A DNA stretch of 36,724 bases from positions 1 to 36,724 of IMG/VR virus record IMGVR_UViG_3300033153_012499, one strand, 5' to 3'. The notes under the pieces are model-generated. The model saw nothing but the letters and a program-made list of their open reading frames with translations. It had not been told where the DNA came from and did no database searches. Below are positions 4,001 to 36,724 of this stretch, in pieces; positions within the stretch are counted from its first letter, which is position 1; every line of letters begins with the position of its first letter. This stretch comes from a virus. Both the position numbers and the translations under genes were made by a program.

Positions 4001-4481
4001 AATTAACGGCTCCGCAAACAAAACCCTTTATCGGTACACGCTTTCGACCCCGTGGGATGTTTCTACTGGAAGTTATGACAGCAGTTATTTTTTGCTGACT
4101 TCGGAGGACACTGCTCCGTACGGAATAGTTTTTGATTCTACCGGATTAAGAATGTACACAACAGGGACGACAAACGACTCTGTTTATCAGTATTCGTCGG
4201 GAATCTCCGATGACCTCGTATTTCTCACCGATGCAAGCGGAAGCGGTGACGAACTCAAGCCGATTGGCTACGCAAATGCCGCAGGAAGTGCAGGCAATAC
4301 AATCGCCTTCAACACAGCAGGAGTTGCGACAGTCTCACCAACAGATTCACCAGCAATCGGGGACATCATGTATCTCTCCAACACCGCAGGAGAAGTTCAG
4401 ACTTCTGCAGGAACGACGAGCGTAAAAGTCGGACGGATGATTTCTGCAACTAAAATGTTGATAATCCCACCACCATTATGA
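1074..4481 (+). CDS. Giant fibre/adhesin with signal-like N-terminus and beta-propeller
   Basis: The product is 1135 aa. Residues 1-33 look like a signal peptide or membrane anchor: MFKKLKR, then a hydrophobic stretch LAGVTVATLLAASTLFVA ending ANALG. Residues about 60-790 are Thr/Ala/Gly-rich fibre sequence with repeated GGTGAST motifs and a VGLGNVSN element typical of phage tail fibres. Residues about 785-1040 hold five repeats of roughly 49 aa of the type SADGTKMYVxG...YQYTLSTxWDVSTASYASK, which should form NHL/YVTN-like beta-propeller blades. A short C-terminal domain follows (GYANAAGSAGNTIAFNTAG and VGRMISATKMLII). It probably binds the host surface. A signal peptide on a virion fibre is odd. 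Alternatives are a phage-encoded secreted adhesin or a virion anchor. Confidence 0.8.
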   Translation: MFKKLKRFLAGVTVATLLAASTLFVAPDANALGQTTATFWTRAIGSIEVLLRSASYHIGSAAQPIAKGWFTDVDVAGTISGAGIPPVDATYITQTADATLTGEQAMGALATGIVKNTTTTGVQSIAAEGTDYYGVGATDVAIADGGTGASTATAGFDALSPLTTIGDLLFGGASGTGSRLGGNTAATNLFLRSLGTGAAAQAPTWSAVTKADVGLGNVSNVATDDTAYDATSWDANTDSSTKNAIRDKIETMLTAIGLNTAKVTESTTATSPLVKTTYDISIPAATNAAAGHATAAHISAIEANTAKDTNVSTALSIGTTTATTVAITSDGGADDVVIPAAINGTAGLLTDAKWDEIVANTGKTTNATHTGDVTGATELTIGAGKVLESHLKCINEPTDEYYLTYEETTGDFEWQTAAGGGDVSKVGTPVDNQIGVWTGDGTIEGDADFIWDSSSLSVARAAIGTAQTVGSSLVNATAAASAAQQFSPVFELEGQGWKTDATAATVEVKWGLQTRPVEGAAAPTGILDFLSSIGGGAFSSKANLTSAGVLTATTFVGALTGQADTVATITGLAPDTATTQATQAAITSAANLATVGTIGTGTWEATDVAVLHGGTGASTASAARTNLGVSIGSNVQAFGAVLDDLNTLGAPASDGQFIVATAAGVFAYESGATALTSIGGIGAATTDTLTNKTFDANATGNSLSNIDVADLANGTDGELITWSADGVATTVGVGTADQVLTSNGAGAAPTFQAVGSSSVEATQTSFTLGETFAEGEAGYIAPASDYDLLNASYASKTFSAASETTLPQDLWISADGTKMYVLGAGDATIYQYTLSTPYDASTGTYASKSKDVSAEDSAIRGMAMSADGTKMYIVGAGEQKIFQYTLSTAWDVSTASYASKWKQTSSEETAPYGVDFSADGTKMYVVGTTSRIVFQYTLSSAWDVSTASYASKSMLVNSEDTSSQSIAISHDGTKIIINGSANKTLYRYTLSTPWDVSTGSYDSSYFLLTSEDTAPYGIVFDSTGLRMYTTGTTNDSVYQYSSGISDDLVFLTDASGSGDELKPIGYANAAGSAGNTIAFNTAGVATVSPTDSPAIGDIMYLSNTAGEVQTSAGTTSVKVGRMISATKMLIIPPPL

Positions 4482-9951: not shown

Positions 9952-12540
9952 ATGAACCTATTCAAAGAAAATCGCGTAATCTACCAAACCGACCCACTCG
10001 ATTTAGATCGGGAGTCCCGCAAACTCAAAATCCAAGCTGGAAATATAATCGGGGAAAAACTCGCCGGAGCGGGAACTTTTGAGGGTAAAACTGCCGGAGC
10101 AATCGCAAATATAACAGCCGCCAATCAGCCGACAACAATCGACATCGCAGTCGCAGCAGCCGAAAAGCCATTCACACCAACCCGCCGAACAGACGCTCGC
10201 GGTGATGTTTGGGAGACAATCGAGGGAAGACCCGGAACGGAAAAACTCGTCGAGAAAGGCGCACGAACTCCAACCGAGGCATCGAAAGAAAGAGCCGACG
10301 AAATAAGAGGACTTTTGAGCGGAAGAGAAGTTCCAGGAGAAAGAAAAGCACTCGAAGAAAAATTGGCATCAACTGCAAACCAAGCAGAAAAAGACGCGAT
10401 ACAGGCAGAAATTGATGGACTCGGCAAAGGAATAACCGACGCAGGCACGAGAGATATTTTAAATGCAGAATTGAGATCACTCAATCAAAATATTTTTGAC
10501 GCGACGACAGGGTTAGATGTCCGTGAACAAGACATTGCACAGGGCAAGAAAGACACACTCGCGGCAATGCAAAAAAGAAAAGATGACATAAGAACAAAAG
10601 AGGGCGAAGCTGGACGAAAAATCGAAAGAGAAATCGGCGCGGTTCTTTCTCGATTCACCGCCGGGGCAGAGGGTGCGGCATCATCGACAGACAAAGGCGT
10701 AATCGAGGGATTCAAAGCCGGTGGAGAAAAAAGACTCCAAGCCGCGATCGCCGCCGATCCCGAACTCGCAAACCTCCGATCGAGGCTCACCCAATTATCG
10801 ACAGGCGAAAGAAATATCGAGAAATTTAAAAAAGAAACGAGTAGTAAAGAATTTGAGTCTTTGATGAATTTCTTCACGGATGCCGACGCAAAACTCGATG
10901 CCGCCGCAAAAGAAAATCTAAAATTTTTGACCGACAACCCCGGCGCACTCGCTTCCGCCTCGGTCGCAAGTGTCGAAGCGGCTCTCACAAAAGCCGGACG
11001 AGACCCCTCGGTTGCCTCGGGTTGGATCGCCGAAGCCAAACTGGCATCACAACTCAAAGGAATCGAACGCGAACAAGCCGAAGCCGATCTCGCCGCCAGT
11101 ATCGCCAAAGCCGAGCAAGCCGCGCTGTCCGATTCCGCCAAAGCTATTGCAGATTTTGATAACCTCCAAGCCGCTCTCAACGCAGGAGAAATTTCACAAG
11201 CATTTTTCGATCGAGAAACGCTGGGGGTTGATCCGACAAAACCAGTTTCGAGATTGGATAAATTAAAAGCCGACCAAATCGAAATAGAAAATCAGATATT
11301 ACAAGCGGAAAGAGATGCAGACCGAGCAGAACTGGAAGCTGCTGAACCAGCCACCCCGAGCGGAGAAATTGTCACGACAAGTTTTGAGAACGGGAGAAAT
11401 ATTAAGATCGACGCGGTAGCGAATCCTTCTCTCAACGCAATCGACCAATCGGCAGCTGGTCAGGAAATTGGAATCAATGGTCAAACTGGACTCGTAACGG
11501 CGGCGATAAAAACAAGCGGATTCAGAAGTAGGGAAACACAGGCGCAACTTTATCAGGAGTTTTTAAATGGTGGAGCACTCGCGGCGGCTCCGGGGACTTC
11601 TCTCCACGAAAAAGGATTGGCAATCGACTTATTTAATGTTGGTCCCGATGCGATGGCATACATCGAGAAAATGAAGCCCATAATGAATTCCAACGGATGG
11701 TTTCAAAATCCTGATATTGTTAAAGACGATCCGAGTCATTTTGAGTTTAAGGGCAATGTAGAGAAGAAGATAGATCAAGAAGTAGAAGACAAAGTTAATT
11801 CAATTTTAAGATCAACAGGTCAAACAACAAGTGGTATTTCGACTAAAGATGATCTTCGAAGTAGGGTAGAAACAAGACTTTCAGAGAAACAAGATGAACT
11901 CAGGGCGGAGGGAGACATCAGGGGAGTCTTGGCTGCTAGTGCTGGAGGTAGCAAGGTTGATTCTTCTTTTTTGCAAAGATTTTCGAAAGGCAAGGTAGTT
12001 GTAAATCAGCTCGATGAACTAACACGCGCACTAACTTCAAATCAAGATGTTGATGACATAGAAGACTTGGAAGACGATGAGGGAAATAAAATATTTGATT
12101 TTAGTCCGATTACTGGATGGGTTAGAAGTAAAAATCCTTGGGATGCTAATGCCCAAGAAATAAACGCTATTATCCAAGGGGCTATTCCTAATCTCGCTCG
12201 TGGTGTGTTTGGGGAGGTCGGTGTTTTGACAGATCACGATGTTGAACTTTATCGAAAAACTCTCCCGACACTTAATCAAACAGACGAAGTTAAAAAATTA
12301 GTAGCTGGACTAACGATGAGGGTTGTAAGAAATTCGCTAGAAGAATCATTGCTTACATATGCCGATAATGGAAGAAATGTAAGCGGCAATATTCGCTATC
12401 TTGATGATCTTGACAGAAAAATAGCCTCAATAGAGTCGCAATTAGGAATAGCAGAAGCTGAATTCGACCTCGACGCACTATTCCAAGAAGCTGAAACCGA
12501 AACCCCCGGAGAATTTAATTCATTTTTTGAAAATTTATAA
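9952..12540 (+). CDS. Large internal virion protein with M15 peptidase domain
   Basis: The product is 862 aa. Residues about 1-460 are almost all charged helix (Ala/Glu/Lys rich) and probably form long coiled coils. Residues about 475-610 hold a D-Ala-D-Ala/L-Ala-D-Glu peptidase of the M15 type: SGFRSRETQAQLY, then SLHEKGLAIDLF (the SxHxxGxAxD zinc site) and DPSHFEFKG (third zinc His). The remainder is helical and acidic. A helical ejection protein carrying a wall-cleaving domain fits a virion peptidoglycan hydrolase that opens the wall during DNA entry. It overlaps the next virion gene by one base. Two tiny frames before it (9862-9903 and 9910-9942) are not called. Confidence 0.7.
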   Translation: MNLFKENRVIYQTDPLDLDRESRKLKIQAGNIIGEKLAGAGTFEGKTAGAIANITAANQPTTIDIAVAAAEKPFTPTRRTDARGDVWETIEGRPGTEKLVEKGARTPTEASKERADEIRGLLSGREVPGERKALEEKLASTANQAEKDAIQAEIDGLGKGITDAGTRDILNAELRSLNQNIFDATTGLDVREQDIAQGKKDTLAAMQKRKDDIRTKEGEAGRKIEREIGAVLSRFTAGAEGAASSTDKGVIEGFKAGGEKRLQAAIAADPELANLRSRLTQLSTGERNIEKFKKETSSKEFESLMNFFTDADAKLDAAAKENLKFLTDNPGALASASVASVEAALTKAGRDPSVASGWIAEAKLASQLKGIEREQAEADLAASIAKAEQAALSDSAKAIADFDNLQAALNAGEISQAFFDRETLGVDPTKPVSRLDKLKADQIEIENQILQAERDADRAELEAAEPATPSGEIVTTSFENGRNIKIDAVANPSLNAIDQSAAGQEIGINGQTGLVTAAIKTSGFRSRETQAQLYQEFLNGGALAAAPGTSLHEKGLAIDLFNVGPDAMAYIEKMKPIMNSNGWFQNPDIVKDDPSHFEFKGNVEKKIDQEVEDKVNSILRSTGQTTSGISTKDDLRSRVETRLSEKQDELRAEGDIRGVLAASAGGSKVDSSFLQRFSKGKVVVNQLDELTRALTSNQDVDDIEDLEDDEGNKIFDFSPITGWVRSKNPWDANAQEINAIIQGAIPNLARGVFGEVGVLTDHDVELYRKTLPTLNQTDEVKKLVAGLTMRVVRNSLEESLLTYADNGRNVSGNIRYLDDLDRKIASIESQLGIAEAEFDLDALFQEAETETPGEFNSFFENL

Positions 12541-15467: not shown

Positions 15468-15685
15468 AATAAATTAGGTTGAGCTGGTTTTATTCTCCAC
15501 TTCTTATAATTACTGACATTAATCGTATCAAAATCATCAGCGTGTTCCCTCATTCTTCTACTCACAGAAGCAGAGGAACAGGAGATACCATCAGCACGGA
15601 GGGCGAGATACACATCATCCTGTGTGCAGTAGAGATTGTCGTTTTCTTTAAAAAAGCGCGTGATGTGGTCGATTAATTTTTTCAT
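15464..15685 (-). CDS. Small winged-helix DNA-binding protein
   Basis: The product is 73 aa and begins MKKLIDHITRFFKENDNLYC. Residues about 20-50 (TQDDVYLALRADGISCSSASVSRRMREH) have the spacing of a helix-turn-helix with a Ser-rich recognition helix. KKWRI could form the wing. It is probably a regulator or a DNA-binding accessory of the recombination operon. The start follows attcccctaaaaaATG. It overlaps the downstream membrane peptide by 4 bp. No named family recognised. Confidence 0.55.
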   Translation of the reverse strand: MKKLIDHITRFFKENDNLYCTQDDVYLALRADGISCSSASVSRRMREHADDFDTINVSNYKKWRIKPAQPNLL

Positions 15686-15697
15686 TTTTTAGGGGAA

Positions 15698-15961
15698 TTA
15701 TTTATAAAATTCTTTTAAATCAACTCCGGTTTTTTCTAAAACAAATTGGTGTATTTCCTCTCCGGTTTTAAATCCAACATTTTTGTCGTGGCTGATCTTT
15801 CGATTGAACATCGATTCAAAAATAATTTTGAGAAAAATCTTCGTTGCCGAGGCAATGTCTTCGTCGCTCCAATCGTTCGGATATTTTTTTAGATCGTTCT
15901 CCCAAAAGGTATCGTGGATTTCTTTTAGGATTGGCGAGATTTTTTTTTGAAAGTTTTTCAT
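15698..15961 (-). CDS. Hypothetical protein
   Basis: The product is 87 aa, mostly helical with aromatic residues (MKNFQKKISPILKEIHDTFW), then a Trp/Asp-containing middle (NDWSDEDIASATKIFLKIIFES) and a Lys-rich end. The start follows ttaactcctctaaaaaATG, a clear copy of the genome's start motif. It lies between the methyltransferase and the winged-helix gene. I do not recognise it. Confidence 0.6.
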   Translation of the reverse strand: MKNFQKKISPILKEIHDTFWENDLKKYPNDWSDEDIASATKIFLKIIFESMFNRKISHDKNVGFKTGEEIHQFVLEKTGVDLKEFYK

Positions 15962-15999
15962 TTTTTAGAGGAGTTAATTTGAAAGTGAATTAAACTGTT

Positions 16000-18186
16000 T
16001 CATTCAAAAATCGTTTTTTGCGCGAGCCGTTTTTTCGCGACTTCGACAAAATCGGGATTGAGTTCGATCCCGATGTATTTCCGCCCGGCTTTTTGGGCGA
16101 CCAGTCCGGTCGTCCCGCTTCCAAAAAACGGGTCCAAAATCGTGTCGCCCTCCCGCGACCCGGCTTTGATGCAAATCTCGGGGATTTTTTCGGGAAAAAC
16201 TGCGAAGTGGCTTGATTTCTCGGTTTTGATTGTGTAGTGTTGGCACGATGAACAAAAAGATTTGCCAACATTGCGAAACGGAATTTTATCCAATAAACGA
16301 GCGTCCAAGCCATCCAGCGAAATTTTGTTCCCGTGCGTGCCGAGATAAAGCGCGGACAACAAAAGTCCGTCTCGTGTGTCGTCAATGCGGGAAAGAATTT
16401 TCACGAAAGAATTATATGAAAGATTGGTCAAAAGATCGTGGACCGTTTTGCGGTTTTCGTTGCTATGGATTGTGGCAGAAAAAAAATGTGAGAGGAGCGA
16501 AGAACCCGAATTTTGTTGCTTCCAGTAATAAACGAGCTTCCGGGCAGTGGGAGAGAAGCCGGATACTTGTTCTTGCGAGAGATGGGAATCAATGCGTTCA
16601 ATGCGGCTCAACAAATCGTCTTCACATTCACCACAAACATCACTGGAAACCGAATCAAAAAAATCCGCATCGTTTGGACAATTTGGAAACACTATGCGCT
16701 TCGTGTCATCGGAAACTTCATCCTGTTCCGCACGAAAAAGACGGGAAGTTTCGATGCCCATAGAAAATGGTTGCGTCGCGATCTCCCAAACGCTCCGTTT
16801 ATTTCGCGCCGGACATCCGTCGAGCTCGACAAATCTTTTTGTGCCGTCGGCGTTGAAATATCCCGAGTGCGCTTTTTCGCCCGGGCGCAACTCTTGAATT
16901 TTTTCGAGTTTGTTCGGCCATCGCTCGTGTCCTTTTTTCGCGACTGTTTGCGGGGACGAGTTCGGGACGAATCCGTTTTGGTATTTCTCGCTCCCCTTCA
17001 TTTTTGTGTCTTTCCGACCGTCGAAATTTGCCGGTTCCATAATTGCCTCGTGATCGTAAAAATATCGCGGGGATTTCGTGAGTAAAAAAATCGACTCGTG
17101 GGACTTCGTGCATCGTCCCGCAGAGAGAGTAAAAATAAATCCGTTTTGGTTTTCGCATTTATAACAACCGGGGCATTCTATTTTTTCTTTGGCATCCACC
17201 CTATTTTGTCCCTTTTTGTGCAATTGCATTTGCGGCAAGCTGGCACTACGTTCTCTGGCAAGTTTTTCCCTCCTTTGCTCAACGGGATCACGTGGTCGAG
17301 AGTCATTTTCAAACTTCTCCGGTTGCAGTAGAAACAACGATAATTGTGGCGGTCCAGAATGTCCATCCAGTCCTGTGCTGTCACGACCCCCTCCGCACTC
17401 CGAAGTCGTGCTCGATAATTCGCCGAGCGTTTCTGCGAGTTTGCCCGACCCTTTGGTGTCGCCAAATATTTTTTTTTGTTCAGTTTGGCCTGTGCTGTCG
17501 CCGAATATCGGTTTCGTTTTTCTATTACTTTCGGTCTTTGTTCTCTTGCTCTCGCAGTTGCCATTCCCTTCGGGCTTTTCTGATAACGCCGTTTTACTAT
17601 TAGATATTTTTCTCTCCGACAAACTGGGCAGGTTGCCGGACCCGTCTTGGTTTGGACTTTTTGTCGGCCACATTCTCTGCAATTTCTCATACTCTTCTAT
17701 TGTAACCCGATGCCTGTAAAAATGCGAACCTTGAACCGATTCCGGCATCGGGTTCGGCTTCGACCAGATTATTTCCTGCCGGAGATACCAACCGTCGGAT
17801 TGGAGCGCGAACGCGACGCGCCACGGAATTCCGACCAAATCTTTCGGCTTTAAGTTTGCGCTATTCTTCGCTTTCGCCGTAATCGCTCCGGCGCTTGTGC
17901 TTTGTTTAGGAGAGTTTTTTTGATATTTTACTGCCCCCGTCCCGTTGTAAGAATCTCCCAAATTCAACCAAAGCGTGCCATCATTTTTCAAAACGCGCTT
18001 CACCTCACGAAAAACCGCGACGAGATTTTTAACAAATTCCTCCGGTGTTTTTTCGAGTCCGAGTTGCCCGCGAACTCCGTAATCTCTCAATCCCCAATAC
18101 GGCGGACTCGTCACGCAACATTGCACGGACTTGTCCGGAAGCCCGCGGAGATTTTCGATTGCGTCGCCGGTCAAAATTTTGTTCAT
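16000..18186 (-). CDS. DNA methyltransferase carrying two long in-frame insertions
   Basis: The product is 728 aa from ATG 18186, which overlaps the VRR-NUC stop (ATGA). It is a beta-type amino-methyltransferase modifying adenine-N6 or cytosine-N4: the catalytic motif TSPPYW is at residues 26-31, WLNLGDSY at 73-80 and the AdoMet motif DPFFGSGTTG at 685-694. Typical relatives are about 300-400 aa. The extra length is residues about 166-336 (low complexity) and 476-658. Those two stretches coincide exactly with HNH genes in other frames (17690-17178 on the same strand and 16248-16763 antisense). The methylase frame stays open through both, and the conserved blocks on each side (PMPESV..RCTKSHE and IATQPFS..HFAVFPEK) are intact. 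It likely protects phage DNA from restriction. Confidence 0.85.
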   Translation of the reverse strand: MNKILTGDAIENLRGLPDKSVQCCVTSPPYWGLRDYGVRGQLGLEKTPEEFVKNLVAVFREVKRVLKNDGTLWLNLGDSYNGTGAVKYQKNSPKQSTSAGAITAKAKNSANLKPKDLVGIPWRVAFALQSDGWYLRQEIIWSKPNPMPESVQGSHFYRHRVTIEEYEKLQRMWPTKSPNQDGSGNLPSLSERKISNSKTALSEKPEGNGNCESKRTKTESNRKTKPIFGDSTGQTEQKKIFGDTKGSGKLAETLGELSSTTSECGGGRDSTGLDGHSGPPQLSLFLLQPEKFENDSRPRDPVEQRREKLARERSASLPQMQLHKKGQNRVDAKEKIECPGCYKCENQNGFIFTLSAGRCTKSHESIFLLTKSPRYFYDHEAIMEPANFDGRKDTKMKGSEKYQNGFVPNSSPQTVAKKGHERWPNKLEKIQELRPGEKAHSGYFNADGTKRFVELDGCPARNKRSVWEIATQPFSMGIETSRLFRAEQDEVSDDTKRIVFPNCPNDADFFDSVSSDVCGECEDDLLSRIERIDSHLSQEQVSGFSPTARKLVYYWKQQNSGSSLLSHFFSATIHSNENRKTVHDLLTNLSYNSFVKILSRIDDTRDGLLLSALYLGTHGNKISLDGLDARLLDKIPFRNVGKSFCSSCQHYTIKTEKSSHFAVFPEKIPEICIKAGSREGDTILDPFFGSGTTGLVAQKAGRKYIGIELNPDFVEVAKKRLAQKTIFE
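16248..16763 (+). CDS. HNH homing-type endonuclease antisense inside the methyltransferase
   Basis: The product is 171 aa from ATG 16248. The N-terminal half has zinc-finger-like cysteine pairs (CQHC at 6-9, FCSRACRD and CRQCGKEF). The C-terminal half is a standard HNH nuclease: CVQC at 116-119, LHIHHKHHW near 125-133, DNLETLC and ASCHRKLH. It runs on the opposite strand to the methyltransferase gene and fits inside its second insertion. A possible promoter (TTGATT, 17 bases, TAGTGT) ends 7 bases before the ATG. Free-standing HNH proteins of this type usually promote spread of their own gene. Being antisense, it can be expressed only from its own promoter. Confidence 0.8.
   Translation: MNKKICQHCETEFYPINERPSHPAKFCSRACRDKARTTKVRLVCRQCGKEFSRKNYMKDWSKDRGPFCGFRCYGLWQKKNVRGAKNPNFVASSNKRASGQWERSRILVLARDGNQCVQCGSTNRLHIHHKHHWKPNQKNPHRLDNLETLCASCHRKLHPVPHEKDGKFRCP
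17178..17690 (-). CDS. HNH homing-type endonuclease nested in the methyltransferase, other frame
   Basis: The product is 170 aa from ATG 17690. N-terminal zinc motif: CRECGR at 4-9 with CPVCRREK at 21-28. A basic linker with a KSPKG/TPKGR repeat follows, a DNA-binding spacer often seen in phage HNH proteins. The C-terminal HNH domain has CFYC at 119-122, LDHVIPLSKGGKNLPENVV (the DH and N positions) and ACRKCN at 151-156. It lies on the same strand as the methyltransferase but one frame over, covering methylase residues 166-336. It could be translated from the methyltransferase message by internal initiation. Confidence 0.8.
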   Translation of the reverse strand: MRNCRECGRQKVQTKTGPATCPVCRREKYLIVKRRYQKSPKGMATARAREQRPKVIEKRNRYSATAQAKLNKKKYLATPKGRANSQKRSANYRARLRSAEGVVTAQDWMDILDRHNYRCFYCNRRSLKMTLDHVIPLSKGGKNLPENVVPACRKCNCTKRDKIGWMPKKK

Positions 18187-18455: not shown

Positions 18456-18760
18456 TTTTTAGGGGTTTTGAGTTGCCTAATTCTTTGAATAAGATCATCG
18501 AGGGTGGCATTGCATAATTCACCTGCACTGCCTGCTTTTTCTTTTTTTTTCCATTTTTTTACTCCTATGATTTGAATAATAAAATCCAATGTGAAATCCA
18601 ATGTGTCGTTCCTCACTTGACGAATAAACTTTCTCAATTTGGAAACATCGAAGACTTGAATTCGCGCGCCATTGCGCATTCCGACCTCCGAATGAAATCG
18701 TTTATCATCCATTCCTTCTTGTAATTCTTTCTCCCAGTCGTGATGTTTTTTGGTGGTCAT
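18452..18760 (-). CDS. Hypothetical helical protein
   Basis: The product is 102 aa and begins MTTKKHHDWEKELQEGMDD. The middle contains a hydrophobic helix (DTLDFTLDFIIQIIGVKKW) flanked by lysines, and a helical C-terminus (LCNATLDDLIQRIRQLK). The start carries ttaacttctgaaaaATG. It overlaps the VRR-NUC gene by 4 bp. No domain recognised. Confidence 0.6.
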   Translation of the reverse strand: MTTKKHHDWEKELQEGMDDKRFHSEVGMRNGARIQVFDVSKLRKFIRQVRNDTLDFTLDFIIQIIGVKKWKKKEKAGSAGELCNATLDDLIQRIRQLKTPKK

Positions 18761-18763
18761 TTT

Positions 18764-19387
18764 TCAGAAGTTAAGATTTTCCAATAAATATTTTTCAGCT
18801 TCTTTTTTTTTTTTTTTTTTTTGCAAGTTAAAAATGTTCAGAAGATGATATGACATTGTTTTTTCCCTTTTTAAAAAAGGCGCAAAATTCTCTGTGCCAA
18901 ATGCTCCTACATTATCCCTCATATCGTAATAGTGATGCCAATAAGCACCACCCGACACAGATGGCTCACGATCATATTCCATAATACATCCCAATAGCTT
19001 ATCTTTTCCGTAATCCCTGTCTACGAAAATACATAAATCTCCGCGCTCTATCCCCTTTTCATAAGCCTTTTTTCCGTTGTCTGGAAAAATATTATCTTCA
19101 TAATATTCCCACTCATCAAAATAATCGCCTGCCTCATAATTACATTTTCCGAAAAAGAATTCAGCGTGTTCGCAGCAAATTTCATTGAGGATGTCGTAGG
19201 CAGGATAATCGATGAATTGTCCATTATTGTTATCATCCCAATCGAATTCTCCTAATTCTAATTTGTATATATGGTCTGGATCATCTCTCCATTGTGCTTT
19301 ACTTTTCGGTAGTTCCACCCCCGCCTTGTCAGCTCTTTTTTTGAGTTCTTGCGCGGTTTTTAGCGTGATGTATTTTTGTTCAATCAT
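18764..19387 (-). CDS. Hypothetical acidic protein with an A20 tract
   Basis: The product is 207 aa and begins MIEQKYITLKTAQELKKRAD. The middle is acidic and aromatic (LELGEFDWDDNNNG, YFDEWEYYEDNIFPDN). YWHHYYDMRDNVGAFG follows, and then a Lys-rich end. An uninterrupted run of 20 A on the coding strand (bases 18803-18822) encodes a string of lysines near residue 190. Slippage there would change the last 15 or so residues. The N-terminal 30 residues resemble domains seen in small phage proteins of unknown function. The start follows ttaacttctgaaaaATG. I cannot assign a role. Confidence 0.6.
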   Translation of the reverse strand: MIEQKYITLKTAQELKKRADKAGVELPKSKAQWRDDPDHIYKLELGEFDWDDNNNGQFIDYPAYDILNEICCEHAEFFFGKCNYEAGDYFDEWEYYEDNIFPDNGKKAYEKGIERGDLCIFVDRDYGKDKLLGCIMEYDREPSVSGGAYWHHYYDMRDNVGAFGTENFAPFLKREKTMSYHLLNIFNLQKKKKKKEAEKYLLENLNF

Positions 19388-19414
19388 TTTTCAGAAGTTA
19401 ATAATTAGTAATTT

Positions 19415-19588: not shown

Positions 19589-19755
19589 TTTTTAGAAATT
19601 AAGTTAAGCTCTGGTCTGTGGTTGTCGCACGTAAAAGCAACACACACCGCACAATCTCCGCAAAATAATTTGCCACACACAGGACATTCATATTCGGCTT
19701 TTTTTCTGCACTTTTTACATCTTTTTCTTTTCGGGATTTCAGTTTTTGAGTTCAT
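19585..19755 (-). CDS. Small zinc-ribbon protein
   Basis: The product is 56 aa. After a basic start (MNSKTEIPKRKRCKKCRKK) it has CxxC pairs at 13-16, 24-27 (CPVC) and 32-35 (CGDC), followed by a further Cys and CDNH at 43-46. This pattern resembles a HIT-type or cross-braced zinc finger. The start overlaps the stop of the lectin-fold gene (ATGA), and the shared bases are the start motif ttaacttctaaaaaATGA. Probably a nucleic-acid or protein adaptor. No specific partner is evident. Confidence 0.65.
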   Translation of the reverse strand: MNSKTEIPKRKRCKKCRKKAEYECPVCGKLFCGDCAVCVAFTCDNHRPELNLISKK

Positions 19756-20300
19756 TTTTTAGAAGTTAAAATACTTTTTTTAAATTTTTCCCATTCACGG
19801 ATTTCTTTGTCCGCGAGCGCGATCATTTCTTTTTTTGCACGGGAGAATTTTGGAGGAGGAGATTCTTTGAGGCAACGAACGGAAAAGCCGTACGCCTTAT
19901 TGTGGGTGTCCCGGTAGGTCGTGGAGTAACCAGAGTACAAGTGTCGTGTCCATGCATTAGTGCCAGACTCGCTGGATGACCAGAGGAGCGTGCTGACGCC
20001 ACGACTGTAGAATGTACCATTAGTGTACCGGTACCCAGTCAGCACGAGATTCGGAATATCACTTTTCGTTTTCATCAGCTCTGTCATCTCGTCATCGGTT
20101 GGCATTCTTTTCTTTTGCTTTTTAGCTTCTCTGATTGCCGCGTCCCAAGTGAATAACTGTTCGCCTGCCTCGTCGCCTCCGATAATTTCCCAAATATCTC
20201 CCGAGGGAGAGACGAGAAGCTCCTTATCTTTGGGCGAGACTTTCCACTTTTTAGCGTGTTCAACGCGGAAGTTGTGTGGTTCGAGTTGGAGGGTTTTCAT
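19752..20300 (-). CDS. C-type-lectin-fold protein resembling DGR target proteins
   Basis: The product is 182 aa and begins MKTLQLEPHNFRVEHAKKWK. Residues about 85-145 match the variable domain of FISUMP-like/CLec proteins diversified by retroelements: GYRYTNGTFYSRGVSTLLWSSSESG, then NAWTRHLYSG and YGFSVRCLKE. The Trp-Ser-Ser and GFSVRCL anchors are the usual landmarks. The residues between them (Asn, Tyr, Thr, Arg, His, Ser) are the type produced by adenine mutagenesis of AAY codons. No reverse transcriptase or template repeat was found in the window, so active diversification is not shown. It lies in the early operon rather than with the virion genes. The start follows aataacccccacacaATG. 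Confidence 0.65.
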   Translation of the reverse strand: MKTLQLEPHNFRVEHAKKWKVSPKDKELLVSPSGDIWEIIGGDEAGEQLFTWDAAIREAKKQKKRMPTDDEMTELMKTKSDIPNLVLTGYRYTNGTFYSRGVSTLLWSSSESGTNAWTRHLYSGYSTTYRDTHNKAYGFSVRCLKESPPPKFSRAKKEMIALADKEIREWEKFKKSILTSKK

Positions 20301-23434: not shown

Positions 23435-23463
23435 TTGACTTTCGGTTTTTGATTTGCTAAAAT
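23435..23463 (+). promoter_or_regulatory. Strong sigma70-type promoter for the lysis genes
   Basis: TTGACT (23435-23440), 17-base spacer and TAAAAT (23458-23463), with a TG at -15/-14 that makes an extended -10. It is the best promoter in the window. The transcript would have a leader of about 90 bases before ATG 23558, containing a GGCGGGGGAGG tract. Confidence 0.75.
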
Positions 23464-29364: not shown

Positions 29365-29679
29365 ATGTCTGATAAAGACAAAACAGCCACTCCGGCTGAA
29401 ATAGGAGAGGAGGCAGGGATTCTTAAAAACATTGGTTTCTCAAAAGCACTGGAAGTGCTGAAACGAGGCGGAACAGTAGCTCGCGCAGGTTGGAACGGCA
29501 AAGGTATGTTCATCAAGATTCAAACACCCGATGAAAATAGCAAGATGGGTTTGCCCTACATCTACATTTCGACTGTGGATGGAAAACTCGTTCCGTGGCT
29601 CGCAAGCCAAACCGATCTCCTCGCGGAAGAAGATTGGGTTGTTTTGACCGATCCATCTTACAGCATCGACGGCGAGTAG
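29365..29679 (+). CDS. tad2: Thoeris anti-defence protein Tad2 (DUF2829)
   Basis: The product is 104 aa. The DUF2829 signature is complete: FSKALEVLKRGGTVARAGWNGKGMFI, then GLPYIYISTVDGKLVPWLAS and LLAEEDWVVL. Tad2 proteins bind cyclic ADP-ribose signal molecules made by Thoeris TIR proteins and so block the NADase effector. Here an extra N-terminal stretch of about 20 residues precedes the domain (MSDKDKTATPAEIGEEAG), similar in style to the start of the neighbouring gene. It carries the start motif ttaaccccttattttATG. Confidence 0.85.
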   Translation: MSDKDKTATPAEIGEEAGILKNIGFSKALEVLKRGGTVARAGWNGKGMFIKIQTPDENSKMGLPYIYISTVDGKLVPWLASQTDLLAEEDWVVLTDPSYSIDGE

Positions 29680-30507: not shown

Positions 30508-30873
30508 ATGGAATCAAAGCAAACAGTCGCGAACAGAGAGAATGGAAAACTCGGAGGAAGACCAACCGGGTCAATCAGTAAAAGCCGACAAATCGCAAAT
30601 GATTTTAAAGAGTATGTCGCCAAAAGAATCAAAGCAAAAAGAAAACCAATTATCGATGCGTTGATTAAAAAATCCGAAGATGGAGATGTCGCCGCCGCAA
30701 AAGAATTATTCGATCGAGGTTTTGGGAGAACAGCAGTTCCAATCGAAGACGCGCCGCCGCCACCACCAAACATTCTCACAATAATTCTCCAAAAAATAGA
30801 TGGACAAACAGCTCGACTCGAATGCGAAAAAAGTCCTGAAATTATTGAAGGACAGGGAGTGGAGGCTCAATAA
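30508..30873 (+). CDS. terS: Terminase small subunit (probable)
   Basis: The product is 121 aa from ATG 30508. An in-frame ATG at 30487 lies upstream of the promoter's -10 and is therefore unlikely. The N-terminus GGRPTGSISKSRQIANDFKEYVAKR has the helix-turn-helix-like opening common in small terminases. Then comes EDGDVAAAKELFDRGFGRT, a motif frequent in this family (xKELxDRxxGK), and a Pro-rich linker. It overlaps the large subunit gene by 74 bases. It recognises phage DNA for packaging. Confidence 0.7.
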   Translation: MESKQTVANRENGKLGGRPTGSISKSRQIANDFKEYVAKRIKAKRKPIIDALIKKSEDGDVAAAKELFDRGFGRTAVPIEDAPPPPPNILTIILQKIDGQTARLECEKSPEIIEGQGVEAQ

Positions 30874-32350
30874 TCTTTATTGGATCGTAAATAAGCGCGG
30901 AGAGAAAATTCGATTCAAACTGAATTGGGCGCAAAAACTCCTCCTTGATAATTTATGGTTCTTAAATATTATTCTGAAAGCTCGGCAGCTCGGGATGTCA
31001 ACATTCATTTCAATATTCTTTTTGGATGTTTGCCTTTTCAATTCAAACCAAACTTGCGGTCAGATTTGCGACACACTCACAAACGCAAAAGCTTTTTTGG
31101 AAGACAAAATAAAACACGCTTACGATTCGATGGACGACTGGATAAAACCAAGCATCCCGAAAATAACAAAATATTCAAAATCAAGTGATGATGCTGGGAT
31201 TTGGTTTTCGAACGGATCAAGTATTCGTGTCGGGACGAGTTTTCGATCGGGGACGCTTCAATTTCTCCACGTGTCGGAACACGCGAAGATTTGTAGCAGT
31301 AGACCAGATAAAGCTCGTGAGATAAAAAACGGCGCGCTCAACACAGTGCAAGCCGGTCAATTTGTTTTTATTGAGTCAACCGCCGAAGACAAAGATGGTG
31401 ATTTTTACACAATGACAAAACGCGCCGAGGAAAACCAACTGGCTGGTGCTGAATTGTCCGAACTTGATTATCGTTTTCAGTTTTTCACTTGGCATCGTCA
31501 GCCCGAATACCGATTGAGTCCGCCTGATGATTTTAAATTTAGCATCAAGTCGAGGGAATATTTCGACTCGCTTCCTTTTAAGATGGATGACGAGCAAAAG
31601 TATTGGTATGTGAAAAAGAAAGAAACTCTCGGCGACGATATGTTTCAAGAATACCCGAGCATCCCCGAGGAGGCGTTTGAGCAAACAAATGAGGGCAGAT
31701 ATTTCCACACGAAGATTCAAAAACTGATCAATGACGGTCGCTATTCAGAGTTTGGAATTGAGGAGGGAATTTTGATTGATACCTTTTGGGATTTAGGGAT
31801 GAATGATTATATGAGTATTTGGTTTGTGCAATTTATTAACAAAGAAATTCGAATCGTGGACTTTTTGGAGGGAAGTGGCGAGGGGCTGGCGTATTATGCC
31901 GAGAGACTAAAAGAAAAAGGCAGACCGATAACTGACGGCGGGCTGGGATACAAATACGGGAGGCACACCGCTCCTCACGACATCAAAGTGCGGGAACTGA
32001 CTGGATCAGGTGAATCAAGACAAGAATACGCGAAAAAACTTGGAATCAATTTTGAGATCGCGCCGAATTTATCTTTCGAAGACGGGATCGATGCGGCACG
32101 AAGGATCATAAATAATTGCTGGTTTCGTAAATCAACAACCGAGGACGGATTCAAACATCTGCAAAAATACTCGAAGAAGTGGAGCGAGGCTCTCGGATGC
32201 TACACCGGCGAAAAGCACGATCAACACTCTCACGCATCGGCGGCGTTTCGTTATCTCGCCGTGTCGAGCGGTCTGAACCACAAAGACGATGATGATGTTC
32301 GCGCACTCAAAGCAAAAGCAAGAATGAGTTTCAAACCGCAAGGTGATTGA
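30800..32350 (+). CDS. terL: Terminase large subunit
   Basis: The product is 516 aa. The ATPase has the Walker A-like KARQLGMST at 60-68, a Walker B ending at the acidic pair FLHVSEHA (155-162, catalytic Glu160) and a C motif near FIESTAE. The nuclease has DTFWDLGMND (Asp331), TAPHDIKVREL (Asp394) and HDQHSHASAAFRYLA (Asp474). The opening RLNNLYWIVNKRGEKIRF is also typical of the family. It translocates DNA into the prohead and cuts it at the end of packaging. All key residues are present. Confidence 0.93.
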   Translation: MDKQLDSNAKKVLKLLKDREWRLNNLYWIVNKRGEKIRFKLNWAQKLLLDNLWFLNIILKARQLGMSTFISIFFLDVCLFNSNQTCGQICDTLTNAKAFLEDKIKHAYDSMDDWIKPSIPKITKYSKSSDDAGIWFSNGSSIRVGTSFRSGTLQFLHVSEHAKICSSRPDKAREIKNGALNTVQAGQFVFIESTAEDKDGDFYTMTKRAEENQLAGAELSELDYRFQFFTWHRQPEYRLSPPDDFKFSIKSREYFDSLPFKMDDEQKYWYVKKKETLGDDMFQEYPSIPEEAFEQTNEGRYFHTKIQKLINDGRYSEFGIEEGILIDTFWDLGMNDYMSIWFVQFINKEIRIVDFLEGSGEGLAYYAERLKEKGRPITDGGLGYKYGRHTAPHDIKVRELTGSGESRQEYAKKLGINFEIAPNLSFEDGIDAARRIINNCWFRKSTTEDGFKHLQKYSKKWSEALGCYTGEKHDQHSHASAAFRYLAVSSGLNHKDDDDVRALKAKARMSFKPQGD

Positions 32351-32366
32351 TGTGGTAGAATAAACC

Positions 32367-32574
32367 AGCCTAAGTCGGACGTTCCATACTTCAACGGACA
32401 GAGAGCCGTATGATTCGAAGAGTTACGCGTTTAGCGTTCGATTTCGACTCAAGAATCAAGAGGGAAGCAGTTGGTTGCGTGATTCGTTTCAGGTAGTCAG
32501 TAGTGCTATGTTAGTTGCGGCGGTAACGACCCCTCTACTGTATAACCAGCTTGGTATGGCATCCGACTTAGGCT
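32367..32574 (+). ncRNA. 208-nt structured RNA between terminase and portal
   Basis: A perfect 13-bp stem, AGCCTAAGTCGGA (32367-32379) with TCCGACTTAGGCT (32562-32574), closes the element. Inside are TGATTC/GAATCA (32411-32416 with 32453-32458) enclosing GAGT/ACTC and an ACGC-GTTTA-GCGT hairpin. CATAC/GTATG lies near 32385-32412. CAGTAG/CTACTG (32498-32503 with 32535-32540) encloses GTTGC/GTAAC, and ACCA-GCT-TGGT comes near the 3' end. No ORF fits. A strong promoter for the portal gene follows 20 bases later. It does not fit a tRNA, tmRNA or intron that I know. Packaging RNA is an inference from position. Confidence 0.75.
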
Positions 32575-32594
32575 TCTAAAAACATTACTGCGGA

Positions 32595-32622
32595 TTGACT
32601 TTTATTTTTTATTTTGTATATT
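32595..32622 (+). promoter_or_regulatory. Strong promoter at the portal gene
   Basis: TTGACT (32595-32600), 16 bases of AT-rich DNA, TATATT (32617-32622). The portal ATG begins 8 bases later, so the transcript is predicted to be leaderless. It probably drives the whole structural operon. Confidence 0.7.
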
Positions 32623-32630
32623 GGTGGGTA

Positions 32631-34400
32631 ATGGCTGATTCTTACGACGCACCGATTCCAGCGGCGAAAACTGGCGACTCCGAAAAGCCTATTGCCCAAA
32701 AAATAGCGGAAATAATCAAAGACAGCGATAATTTATACGCCACAGAATACGATATTCGCGAGACACTTCGGATCGTGAAAGAATCAATTTTTGACACAAA
32801 AGACCCGACAAACTTGACTCGACGAGTTGAGGCTTTTATGCCATACCTCGCATTCTTGAAAATGTATCAGCAGTTTCAGTTGCCCGATATTACTTTGGAG
32901 TGCGCCGCAGTGTCCCCGAACAAACTGGCGACAGTTCAAGCTCTTTTTGAAGACGCGCTCGAACAATCAAACTGGCGCAATGTCTTGACCGGCACGAACG
33001 GAGCGCAAGCAAAAATGATCGGCTACGGCGATGCTTTCCCGAGCTTTGGTCGCCGCCCCGAATACGATGAACTCGGAACAGGATTTCCTTTTAGCTATCG
33101 ACTTGAAAATACCGCACGAATCAAGTTCCCGAAAAATGCGGTTAAACTTTGGAATCCCGGCGACGAACGAGAGTGCCGACAGCTCGTGATCCTACGCGAA
33201 AAAGATTTGGATCAGGCGTGGGAAGACGATCCAATTTTAAAACGAAACGGAATCAGCGGGAAAATTCTGATGGAGATCGACGAAAAGATGAACACCCAAA
33301 CCGACGAGCAAGAGAACCGAGAGGAAAGAATAGTCGAGACGGCAGAATTTATCGACTTGAACAAACGCCTTTCGGTCAAAATGAGCGGAGCGACAAACTT
33401 CCTCCACGATGAATTTAAAGGCGATGAATTTCCGCACATTGATAGAAATAACCAAGCTCGCTTCCCAATGATGCACCTCGTGGCTTATGAGCGCGAGCAG
33501 GGGATGCTCAACTTCGGACTGCTCCACGCCACCTATCGATTTGCAATTATTATTCGGATTTTGCAGAATAAAAAAATCGAGTGGACGATCTCCAACACAA
33601 ATCCAGTCCGAATTGTCGCTCTCGGAGATATGAGCCAAACGGACTTCGTGGGACGGCACACCGATGCGATCGAAGACCAAAAGGTCGGCAAGACCGGCGT
33701 TATTTACACAAAAGGCTCTGAAAAAGCCACAATCGGGCATCTCGGAACTCCCGGCAACGCCCTGATAAATGCCGCCAACGAATCAATCGCGGAAATGGAA
33801 AAGAACATCCAAAGACTCGGCGTGAATATCGACGACATCACAATCGACACAGCCGAGAAACTCGGACAAACAGAATTAGCATTCGAATCACAAACAGCCG
33901 CCGCTCGCTCAATCCAAAAACAGAATGCAGATGAATATCAACGCGGAGCTGAATTTCTCCAAGACGCGATTATTATGGACATCGACGACGATAACGATGT
34001 GCCACTTCGTGCCAAGAATAAGATTCGAGATGATTCAGGAAACCTCGTCGCCGTCCCCGGAATTCCAGTCGAAAACGAAGATGGTGTGGTCGAGACAGTC
34101 AGTTTTACTTTAGGAGATTTGGCTTCCGAACTTAAAGCCAACGATTACCGGATTAAGATTTCTGGTGGAATTGTGAATCCACGCACGAGAATTCGCCGAA
34201 TTGAGAGAGACTTGCAACGAGACTTGATTATGCTCGCCAACCTCGGAGACCAAAAAGCCGCTCGTGCTTTGTCTGATCTCACAGCAAACAAATTTGAATC
34301 AGAGGGCATTCCGTTTCGATTTGATGATGTTCCCGAGACATCGCTACCTGAAAATTTGAGAGCGATTGCTACACCCGAAGCAGAAGAAATACCAGTTTAA
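32631..34400 (+). CDS. Portal protein
   Basis: The product is 589 aa from ATG 32631; the frame upstream to 32595 overlaps the promoter and gives an unlikely hydrophobic start. It follows terL and precedes scaffold and capsid, the canonical place for the portal. Sequence features: an early segment MPYLAFLKMYQQFQLPDI, NWRNVLTGTNGAQAKMIGYGDAFPSFG, LLHATYRFAIIIRILQNKKIEW and a long C-terminal helix region (FESQTAAARSIQKQNADEYQR). The length is typical for portals. It forms the ring through which DNA enters and leaves. Confidence 0.7.
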   Translation: MADSYDAPIPAAKTGDSEKPIAQKIAEIIKDSDNLYATEYDIRETLRIVKESIFDTKDPTNLTRRVEAFMPYLAFLKMYQQFQLPDITLECAAVSPNKLATVQALFEDALEQSNWRNVLTGTNGAQAKMIGYGDAFPSFGRRPEYDELGTGFPFSYRLENTARIKFPKNAVKLWNPGDERECRQLVILREKDLDQAWEDDPILKRNGISGKILMEIDEKMNTQTDEQENREERIVETAEFIDLNKRLSVKMSGATNFLHDEFKGDEFPHIDRNNQARFPMMHLVAYEREQGMLNFGLLHATYRFAIIIRILQNKKIEWTISNTNPVRIVALGDMSQTDFVGRHTDAIEDQKVGKTGVIYTKGSEKATIGHLGTPGNALINAANESIAEMEKNIQRLGVNIDDITIDTAEKLGQTELAFESQTAAARSIQKQNADEYQRGAEFLQDAIIMDIDDDNDVPLRAKNKIRDDSGNLVAVPGIPVENEDGVVETVSFTLGDLASELKANDYRIKISGGIVNPRTRIRRIERDLQRDLIMLANLGDQKAARALSDLTANKFESEGIPFRFDDVPETSLPENLRAIATPEAEEIPV

Positions 34401-34917: not shown

Positions 34918-35808
34918 ATGTCTGATGACACCCCCAATGGAGGTTCCGAGCTAAATGCCGGTTCCAAAGAGGCGGCGCCAACAACGCCTGCCGCGCCAAT
35001 CGCTGGTGATGATCCAGCAACGCCCGAGCAAGAGGAAACCCCGGCAACCGAGGAATCTTCTTCTGACGAAGAACTTCTCGCGGAAATAACTGCCGAGGAA
35101 ACACCACCCCCAACCGCGCCCGACCCGGCGAAAGTTGAGGCTGAAAAAGCCGAACGCCGAAAGGAGGCGAAAGCCGACTTTAAGTTAAAGCTTACGAACT
35201 TCGTGGCGCAAGTCACCGAAGCTCGTGCAGATGGTAAATCTCTCGATGACGCACTCGAAGGTATCCCTGATAGCTTCAAAGGCAAAATTCGAAAGATAGC
35301 CACCAATCAAGCCACAATTTCCGAAGAAGTCGAAAACGAAGGAGGTAGTGAAGCTCCCAAAACGCTGGGGGCTAAACCCGAAATGACTCCGATGCAAGCT
35401 GCCGAAGCGGTGGCTGACAAAAAGGAGGCAAATGGGTTGATGCTCGAAATTGTTAAAGCATCCGGTTTGAATAAGAAAACTGCCCACGCAATAAGTGGCA
35501 GAAAAAAATTCAAAGCAGATGTCGAACAATTTGCAAAAGCAATGCCACGCAGCAAAGCGGTGGAAGCGGCTGCGGCTACCAACGGACTACTCGACAAAGT
35601 AGCTCTCGCGAAAGCAAAAAAACAAGTCACCCGAGAAAGAGGCACAGCACTCGCTCCGGCTGGCAATCCACCAATCTCTCCTGATAAGCACCAATACACG
35701 GCAGCGGAGCTGTCGCAACTACCAAAACCAGTTTATAACAAAGTAATGGCGAAAGTAGATAAAGGAGAGGTAAAAATTGTCTCACCAAAGACAACACCAG
35801 TAGCTTGA
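34918..35808 (+). CDS. Capsid scaffold protein
   Basis: The product is 296 aa. The N-terminal third is acidic and Pro/Glu-rich (disordered). The middle is helical (KVEAEKAERRKEAKADFKLK, NFVAQVTEARADGKSLD). The C-terminal part is Lys/Ala-rich with a basic end. Composition, length and place immediately before the coat gene fit a scaffolding protein that shapes the procapsid and then leaves. No protease motif is visible. The start follows catttcaccccactcctATG. Confidence 0.7.
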   Translation: MSDDTPNGGSELNAGSKEAAPTTPAAPIAGDDPATPEQEETPATEESSSDEELLAEITAEETPPPTAPDPAKVEAEKAERRKEAKADFKLKLTNFVAQVTEARADGKSLDDALEGIPDSFKGKIRKIATNQATISEEVENEGGSEAPKTLGAKPEMTPMQAAEAVADKKEANGLMLEIVKASGLNKKTAHAISGRKKFKADVEQFAKAMPRSKAVEAAAATNGLLDKVALAKAKKQVTRERGTALAPAGNPPISPDKHQYTAAELSQLPKPVYNKVMAKVDKGEVKIVSPKTTPVA

Positions 35809-35855
35809 CACTCATTGATAACGGGTGATCAAGTTCCCTTTCACCCCCCTATCAA

Positions 35856-36724
35856 ATGAGTAATACTCTTGTCCTCAAAGACATTCTCCAAAAGGAGACC
35901 TCCCGAAAATTCGACAACGCAGTCAGAATTTTCCCTTGGGCTAATCGTCAATTTGAGGGTCAGCTGAAAAAGAAAGGTGATACAGTCACAGTTCAAACCG
36001 TCCCCAACACGACATACAAACGAAATGTCACGGCGGGCGCGGATCAAACCGGGTCTGATTTCACAATTACTTCCAGCGACCTCACAGTTGATCAAGTTGC
36101 CCAGTTCATCCGCAATATTAAAGATATTGAGGAAATTCAAAACAATTTCAGCCTCACGGCTAAATTCGCCGAGCGTGATGCTACGGCTGCCGCGATCTTA
36201 ATGGATCGTTTCACCGCTTTCACCGCGCAGGCAGGTGCTGATTCCGGCAACATCTTGGACGCTGGCGCACCAACAACCCTCACGAAAGACAACATTGTTC
36301 CCCTCATCGAGGAGATGCGAAAAGCTCTTTCGGAAAACAACGCAATCGACAACGCTGCTCTCTTTGTCAATCCAAACGCGATGAGTTTCATTCGACAGAG
36401 TGATCTCTTCACCGGATTTGCCGAAGGTCTTTCACAGCGTCGCTCGATGGGTTCGGGCACAATCTCCGGCTTTACAGTCATCGAAACAAACGACCTTCCT
36501 TTTGCCGCTGATCTTCAAATGGCGACAAACCCAACAGCAACCGACACCATCGTAATCGGTGGAGTGACTTTCACTTATGTGACTTCGATTGGAACTGCTG
36601 CTGGGAATGTCCTCATCGGCGCAAATGTGGCGGCTTCGCAAGCGAATCTCGTGACATTGTTGGCTGCACCCGGGACAACAACGGCAACCGGCGTAGCTGT
36701 CTCGTCCGCAGACCAAGAAACACT
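35856..36724 (+). CDS. Major capsid protein, N-terminal part (continues at base 2)
   Basis: The reading frame starts at ATG 35856 (motif tttcacccccctatcaaATG) and runs off the window end. It continues at bases 2-415 for a total of 389 aa. It begins MSNTLVLKDILQKETSRKFD. The segments FPWANRQFEGQLKKKGDTV, VDQVAQFIRNIKDIEEIQNN and LFVNPNAMSFIRQSDLF are the usual pattern of P22-type/HK97-fold coat proteins (N-arm, spine helix, then an FVNPxxxxxL strand). A beta-rich insertion begins near residue 225 (PTATDTIVIGGVTFTYV). No N-terminal delta domain is needed, because the scaffold is a separate protein. Confidence 0.85.
   Translation, partial: MSNTLVLKDILQKETSRKFDNAVRIFPWANRQFEGQLKKKGDTVTVQTVPNTTYKRNVTAGADQTGSDFTITSSDLTVDQVAQFIRNIKDIEEIQNNFSLTAKFAERDATAAAILMDRFTAFTAQAGADSGNILDAGAPTTLTKDNIVPLIEEMRKALSENNAIDNAALFVNPNAMSFIRQSDLFTGFAEGLSQRRSMGSGTISGFTVIETNDLPFAADLQMATNPTATDTIVIGGVTFTYVTSIGTAAGNVLIGANVAASQANLVTLLAAPGTTTATGVAVSSADQET
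36611..36724. repeat. Terminal overlap, right copy
   Basis: This copy is identical to bases 1-114. It lies within the capsid coding sequence and preserves the frame across the join. Confidence 0.95.

Follow-up and report, generated by a model that had tools for sequence, protein, structure and literature searches.

The window analyzed here is a stretch of 36,724 nucleotides that makes up the entire IMG/VR virus record IMGVR_UViG_3300033153_012499. Its first 114 bp recur at its end as a perfect direct repeat (1-114 = 36611-36724), and since this repeat lies within the major head protein gene it resembles the overlap of a circular assembly. The genome is probably complete and circular, with a length of ~36,610 bp. 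In the late operon, terL is followed, after a gap, by the genes for a 589-aa protein and an acidic protein, with a small ORF between them, and then by the gene for the major head protein. TerL, the large subunit of the terminase (516 aa, 30800-32350, + strand), was assigned by tblastn, by a match to the terminase family phrog_2 (E 1.6e-19), and by motif. It is 42% identical over 92% to the TerL of Cronobacter phage phiES15 (tblastn), and its nuclease-type WDLG.ND motif is conserved among relatives; these matches point to a TerL of the ordinary kind, resembling those of ordinary siphophages. The best TerL relative in viral contigs (locus L031) is only 48% identical, which makes this phage a lone lineage in the collections. 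A small ORF upstream of terL and overlapping its start (about 30511-30873) is a candidate TerS by position.

Downstream of terL, the 589-aa protein (32631-34400, + strand) occupies the position expected of a portal. Searches of Pfam, PHROGs, NCBIfam, and PDB and comparisons with hhalign gave no trustworthy family match for this protein, and its structure model was of no use (mean pLDDT 37), leaving a portal identity that is suggested by position only. The initial annotation had placed a structured RNA between terminase and portal genes; the terminase side of that description is confirmed, while no family search confirmed the portal side. The acidic, low-complexity 296-aa protein (34918-35808, + strand), recognized as an ORF and by its sequence, stands in the scaffold position, which is the basis for its putative function, and a search for a family match found none. 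The major head protein gene (phrog_267, E 6e-19, + strand) runs from 35856 to 36724 and continues past the circular junction as far as about base 415. A 45-residue segment of its product (36513-36650) is 60% identical to positions 6001-6132 of L111, an otherwise unrelated viral contig, and is possibly a swapped domain. Between terL and the 589-aa protein gene is a gap of 280 nt (32351-32630), which, as the initial annotation had noted for the packaging operon, is the sole sizeable one from terL to the major capsid gene. Similar-sized gaps are present elsewhere in the genome.

The remainder of the genome includes a replication module with a DnaB helicase, RecT, a YqaJ-type nuclease, RusA, and HNH, and a DNA methyltransferase is also encoded. 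The latter is CcrM-like (16000-18186, - strand), with conserved halves that lie several hundred residues apart. A sheath-like DUF3383 protein is suggestive of a contractile tail. The 1135-aa protein at 1074-4481 (+ strand) has an N-terminus resembling a signal peptide, which is odd for a tail-module protein, and contains four 52-residue repeats at a spacing of 156 nt (about 3510-4079). A late protein of 862 aa (9952-12540, + strand) contains a VanY-type peptidase domain and is possibly a virion-associated lysin. A Tad2-like protein, which would act against Thoeris defence, is encoded at 29365-29679 (+ strand; Pfam E 5e-23). At 19752-20300 (- strand) a match to Fib_succ_major / Lcl_C is weak, falling short of the curated cut-off at E 7e-7, and could hint at the host lineage. 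Shine-Dalgarno sequences are absent at start codons, and many of these are preceded instead by a recurring leader such as TTAACTTCTGAAAAATG or TAACCCCTTTATTATG (for example at 15678-15705, 15954-15981, 18757-18779, 19384-19406, and 28984). This leader may be a sign of an unusual host or of nonstandard initiation signaling.

The gap contains a candidate structured noncoding RNA of 208 bases (32367-32574, + strand). It is closed by the helix P1, in which the 5' arm AGCCTAAGTCGGA (32367-32379) pairs with the 3' arm TCCGACTTAGGCT (32562-32574) through 13 perfect Watson-Crick pairs at a mean probability of 0.99, so that the closing stem described in the initial annotation is present exactly where it had been placed. 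An internal loop separates P1 from P2, a 7-bp helix (32384-32390 with 32553-32559, mean probability 0.96) that closes a multibranch core, and P1 and P2 together form a near-continuous duplex of ~20 bp. Four elements leave the multibranch junction. P3 (32394-32409) is a 4-bp hairpin with the loop ACAGAGAG and a mean probability of 0.96. P4 (32411-32458) is an arm in three parts (6 + 5 + 4 bp) that contains an 8-nt bulge and a GUUUA loop (mean probabilities 0.79-0.99). P5 (32459-32536) is a three-way arm whose 6-bp stem AGAGGG/CCCUCU bears P5a (32466-32507) and P5b (32510-32530, loop GGCG), with mean probabilities of 0.67-0.99. P6 (32538-32549) is a weak 3-bp hairpin with a mean probability of 0.89. 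The prediction of three or more nested helices is thus borne out, with mean pair probabilities of 0.67-0.99 for the helices inside P1. When a larger region is folded, a possible outer helix is added around P1.

Both the closing stem and the overall stability of the fold are exceptional. When the 280-nt gap was dinucleotide-shuffled 400 times, no shuffle produced a 13-bp inverted repeat with a span of 150 nt or more, the longest in each being 5-10 bp, and the whole genome has just two other places with a perfect 12-bp inverted repeat within 400 nt. The minimum free energy (MFE) of 32366-32576 is -78.1 kcal/mol (z -4.7), and none of 200 shuffles was as good. In a genome-wide ranking by regression of MFE against GC, this region is the most over-stable of 1,828 segments of 211 nt on both strands, a rank that is mildly flattered because the register was chosen. 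The second most over-stable fold in the genome lies where the acidic protein gene meets that of the major head protein (35721-35970, - strand). The thermodynamic excess comes mostly from P1 alone, with the interior without P1 giving z values of -1.6 to -1.8 and 29 of 400 shuffles being as stable. What distinguishes the interior is how definite its fold is: its ensemble diversity is 14 versus a shuffle mean of 43, and only 4 of 400 shuffles were as definite. The antisense strand folded alone is also over-stable (z -4.2) because the inverted repeat sits on both strands. The sense strand stands out more, at 3.2 standard deviations below the genome-wide regression versus 1.6 for the antisense.

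Across 32340-32579, each of the six frames has a codon-usage score that is below zero or close to it, while in-frame scores are positive as far as the end of terL and again from the start of the downstream gene. One plus-strand frame runs without a stop for 71 codons (32364-32576). We rejected a coding gene within the element since no start codon lies close to where this frame opens, its codon usage is not that of the phage, and a search for a relative found none. The open frame could also be read as a trace of a decayed small gene, with the gap holding leftover noncoding sequence in which the inverted repeat arose fortuitously, and both the presence of small genes at the same junction in several relatives and the weakly unusual stability of the interior alone are in keeping with such a relic. 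The non-phage codon usage and lack of relatives of the frame argue against this, as does a 13-bp closing repeat that shuffling never produced, and we consider a chance or relic origin decidedly improbable.

Signals resembling promoters, recognized by their match to consensus and not by measurement, flank the element. One of them, TGGTAGAAT (32353-32361, + strand), is an extended -10 box between the terL stop (32350) and P1. The start predicted from this box, 6-7 nt further on, falls at 32367/32368, the first bases of P1. There is no good -35 sequence for this box. The pattern TGNTANNAT has only 9 occurrences on both strands of the genome (73 kb), one of them at a strong promoter-like site (23435-23463, TTGACT-17-TAAAAT), and its occurrence there suggests that this form may be used by the phage. 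By density, the chance of a box being placed within one base of this position is ~4e-4, before allowing for other acceptable promoter forms. A second promoter-like site, TTGACT-16-TATATT (32595-32622, + strand), matches 10 of 12 consensus bases within a T-rich stretch on the 3' side of the element and ends 8 nt before the next start codon; one site of this type was found versus 0.4 expected in the 500-nt region. A search for intrinsic terminators, defined as a GC-rich hairpin followed directly by a T run, found none in 32200-32700 and thus none after P1. With a promoter-like box at its first base, an improbable stem, a definite fold, and no coding potential, the element is a strong candidate for the large structured RNA that had been proposed here, and these 208 bases are very likely to form an RNA fold that is closed and branched and is preceded by a start signal of its own.

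The same arrangement of signals bears on whether such an RNA would be a separate unit. The structure could instead be part of a terL-to-head-gene transcript, acting in cis to set the downstream gene independently of terL, for example if the P1/P2 duplex were cut by RNase III or blocked exonucleases, or if a head protein bound the folded leader. An intercistronic element of this kind would account well for a location directly between two same-strand genes and 56 nt before the next start codon, for the near-continuous duplex of P1 and P2, and for the possible outer helix in the larger fold. The presence of promoter-like sites both at the first base of the structure and downstream of it suggests separate units, however, and neither a recognizable terminator within the gap nor a comparable element in the TerL relatives, which manage without one, was found. 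We regard this cis-acting role as possible, though somewhat unlikely.

Comparison with known RNA families and with related genomes yielded no counterpart. ARAGORN and Rfam gave no tRNA or tmRNA match, and the Rfam covariance scan that the initial annotation had proposed returned no family at gathering level among 4227, including group I and group II introns, 6S, RNase P, GOLLD, and ROOL. The statement that the element is not a tRNA, tmRNA, or recognizable intron therefore holds, with just two chance-level matches below gathering (E 2.6 and 8.1). We also built a covariance model, R1, from the single sequence; it scores itself at 265 bits and reaches only fairly close homologs. R1 found nothing else credible in about 77 loci (63 + 15), nearly all around related terL genes, in 25 whole viral records with a related TerL, or in 3 + 388 + 395 bacterial genomes (about 780, a few counted twice). 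The sets of 388 and 395 represent two arbitrary bacterial phyla drawn blindly with respect to the host, so that their emptiness means little. A blastn search of the region against phages and plasmids returned nothing credible, and a pattern of the P1 arms and their spacer had no match in viral contigs. This failure to find a homolog is absence of evidence, and without a homolog there is no covariation or conservation to draw on. In TerL relatives the same junction holds small ORFs, short spacers, or nothing, with the closest relatives carrying small genes or little. A few of the other TerL-to-portal gaps fold into mildly stable structures (z down to -2.8), and R1 matches none of them.

This variable content at the junction in the closest TerL relatives is what would be expected of an insertion-prone site, and the element might be a nonautonomous, MITE-like insertion after terL, with the 13-bp arms as its terminal repeats and the RNA fold as a by-product. 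Such an origin would fit a noncoding block that is bordered on each side by perfect terminal inverted repeats, and the stability of the antisense fold alone also agrees with it. Against it, the edges lack a target-site duplication (left ...AAACC, right TCTAA...), the element is single copy in the genome and was found in no plasmid, phage, or viral contig searched, and the interior fold is unusually well defined. An insertion of this type appears improbable.

Two other classes of element with long inverted repeats were considered and rejected. The arms of integron attC sites end in AAC/GTT. The arms here end in AAG/CTT, which is inconsistent with an attC-like site. In retrons, a long inverted repeat closes the folded msr-msd RNA of roughly 200 nt, and the present element is similar in having a long inverted repeat around a ~200-nt fold. 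It differs in that no reverse transcriptase was found among the proteins scanned (Pfam), its neighbors are TerL and a head-module protein, and no branching-G context was observed where the 5' arm ends.

The pRNA of phi29 is a known packaging RNA against which this element can be set, and the initial annotation had raised a packaging-motor RNA or a pac site as possible roles, alongside a regulatory RNA, which the element may be. Like the candidate described here, phi29 pRNA is a phage-encoded structured RNA in which the 5' and 3' ends pair; it forms multimers through complementary loops and is carried on the prohead while DNA is packaged. The pRNA is described as peculiar to phi29-like phages and is 174 nt in length, a size of the same order as the present element, and it is encoded near the left genome end at positions 147-320 (PMC11476376). 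The element here adjoins a motor gene, lying between the motor ATPase gene and the gene in the portal position, whereas the phi29 gene is not located between terminase and portal genes. The packaging ATPase of phi29 has only a vestigial nuclease domain (PMC7672431), in contrast to the TerL here, which is ordinary and retains a nuclease-type domain and motif. There is no match to the pRNA family RF00044, either at the gathering threshold or up to E 10, and no homolog in the 25 records with related genes. The phage itself, with its DnaB helicase, RecT, and sheath-like DUF3383 protein, is not phi29-like. We found no positive evidence for a DNA pac site, and a packaging function of either kind, whether as a motor part comparable with pRNA or as a pac site, is suggested by position only and seems very unlikely. 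It is also very unlikely that the element is an independently evolved packaging or head-assembly RNA working with a conventional nuclease-bearing terminase; if this were true, phages outside the phi29 group would also have RNA parts in their packaging motors.

Other phage RNAs offer looser parallels. Phages express abundant intergenic RNAs without known role, such as sRNA1 and sRNA2 of PAK_P3 late in infection and the band C/D RNAs of T4, which like the present element are noncoding and lie outside coding genes (PMC4933390). Expression has been demonstrated for those RNAs, of which the PAK_P3 pair measure ~100 nt and derive from other loci, while the RNA described here is a candidate from sequence. 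GOLLD and ROOL are likewise elaborate noncoding RNAs with links to phages (PMC12286853), but they are much larger, and there was no Rfam match to either here.

The most economical reading is that this locus encodes a stand-alone structured noncoding RNA of ~210 nt, made by the phage from between terL and the next head gene, to which we assign a probability of roughly 50%. Such an RNA is the likely reading, with the cis element of a late transcript as a close second and its main rival. We infer that host RNA polymerase would start at the extended -10 box, so that the RNA would begin at the first base of P1. P1 would zip the 5' and 3' ends together and shield them from nucleases, which would stabilize the RNA, and P2 and the branched core would present five hairpin loops. 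The RNA would be expressed together with the late genes and would act in trans on any target, by binding a protein or by pairing with mRNA. Transcription of the next head gene would begin at a promoter of its own or reach it by read-through.

In the literature searched, no RNA has been described at the junction of terL and the gene in the portal position. If it is expressed, the element would add to the orphan structured RNAs of tailed phages. Pending a transcript or a relative, it amounts to a single well-folded sequence from a single genome, and its main use would be as a concrete candidate for testing roles of RNA in head assembly and packaging outside the phi29 group.
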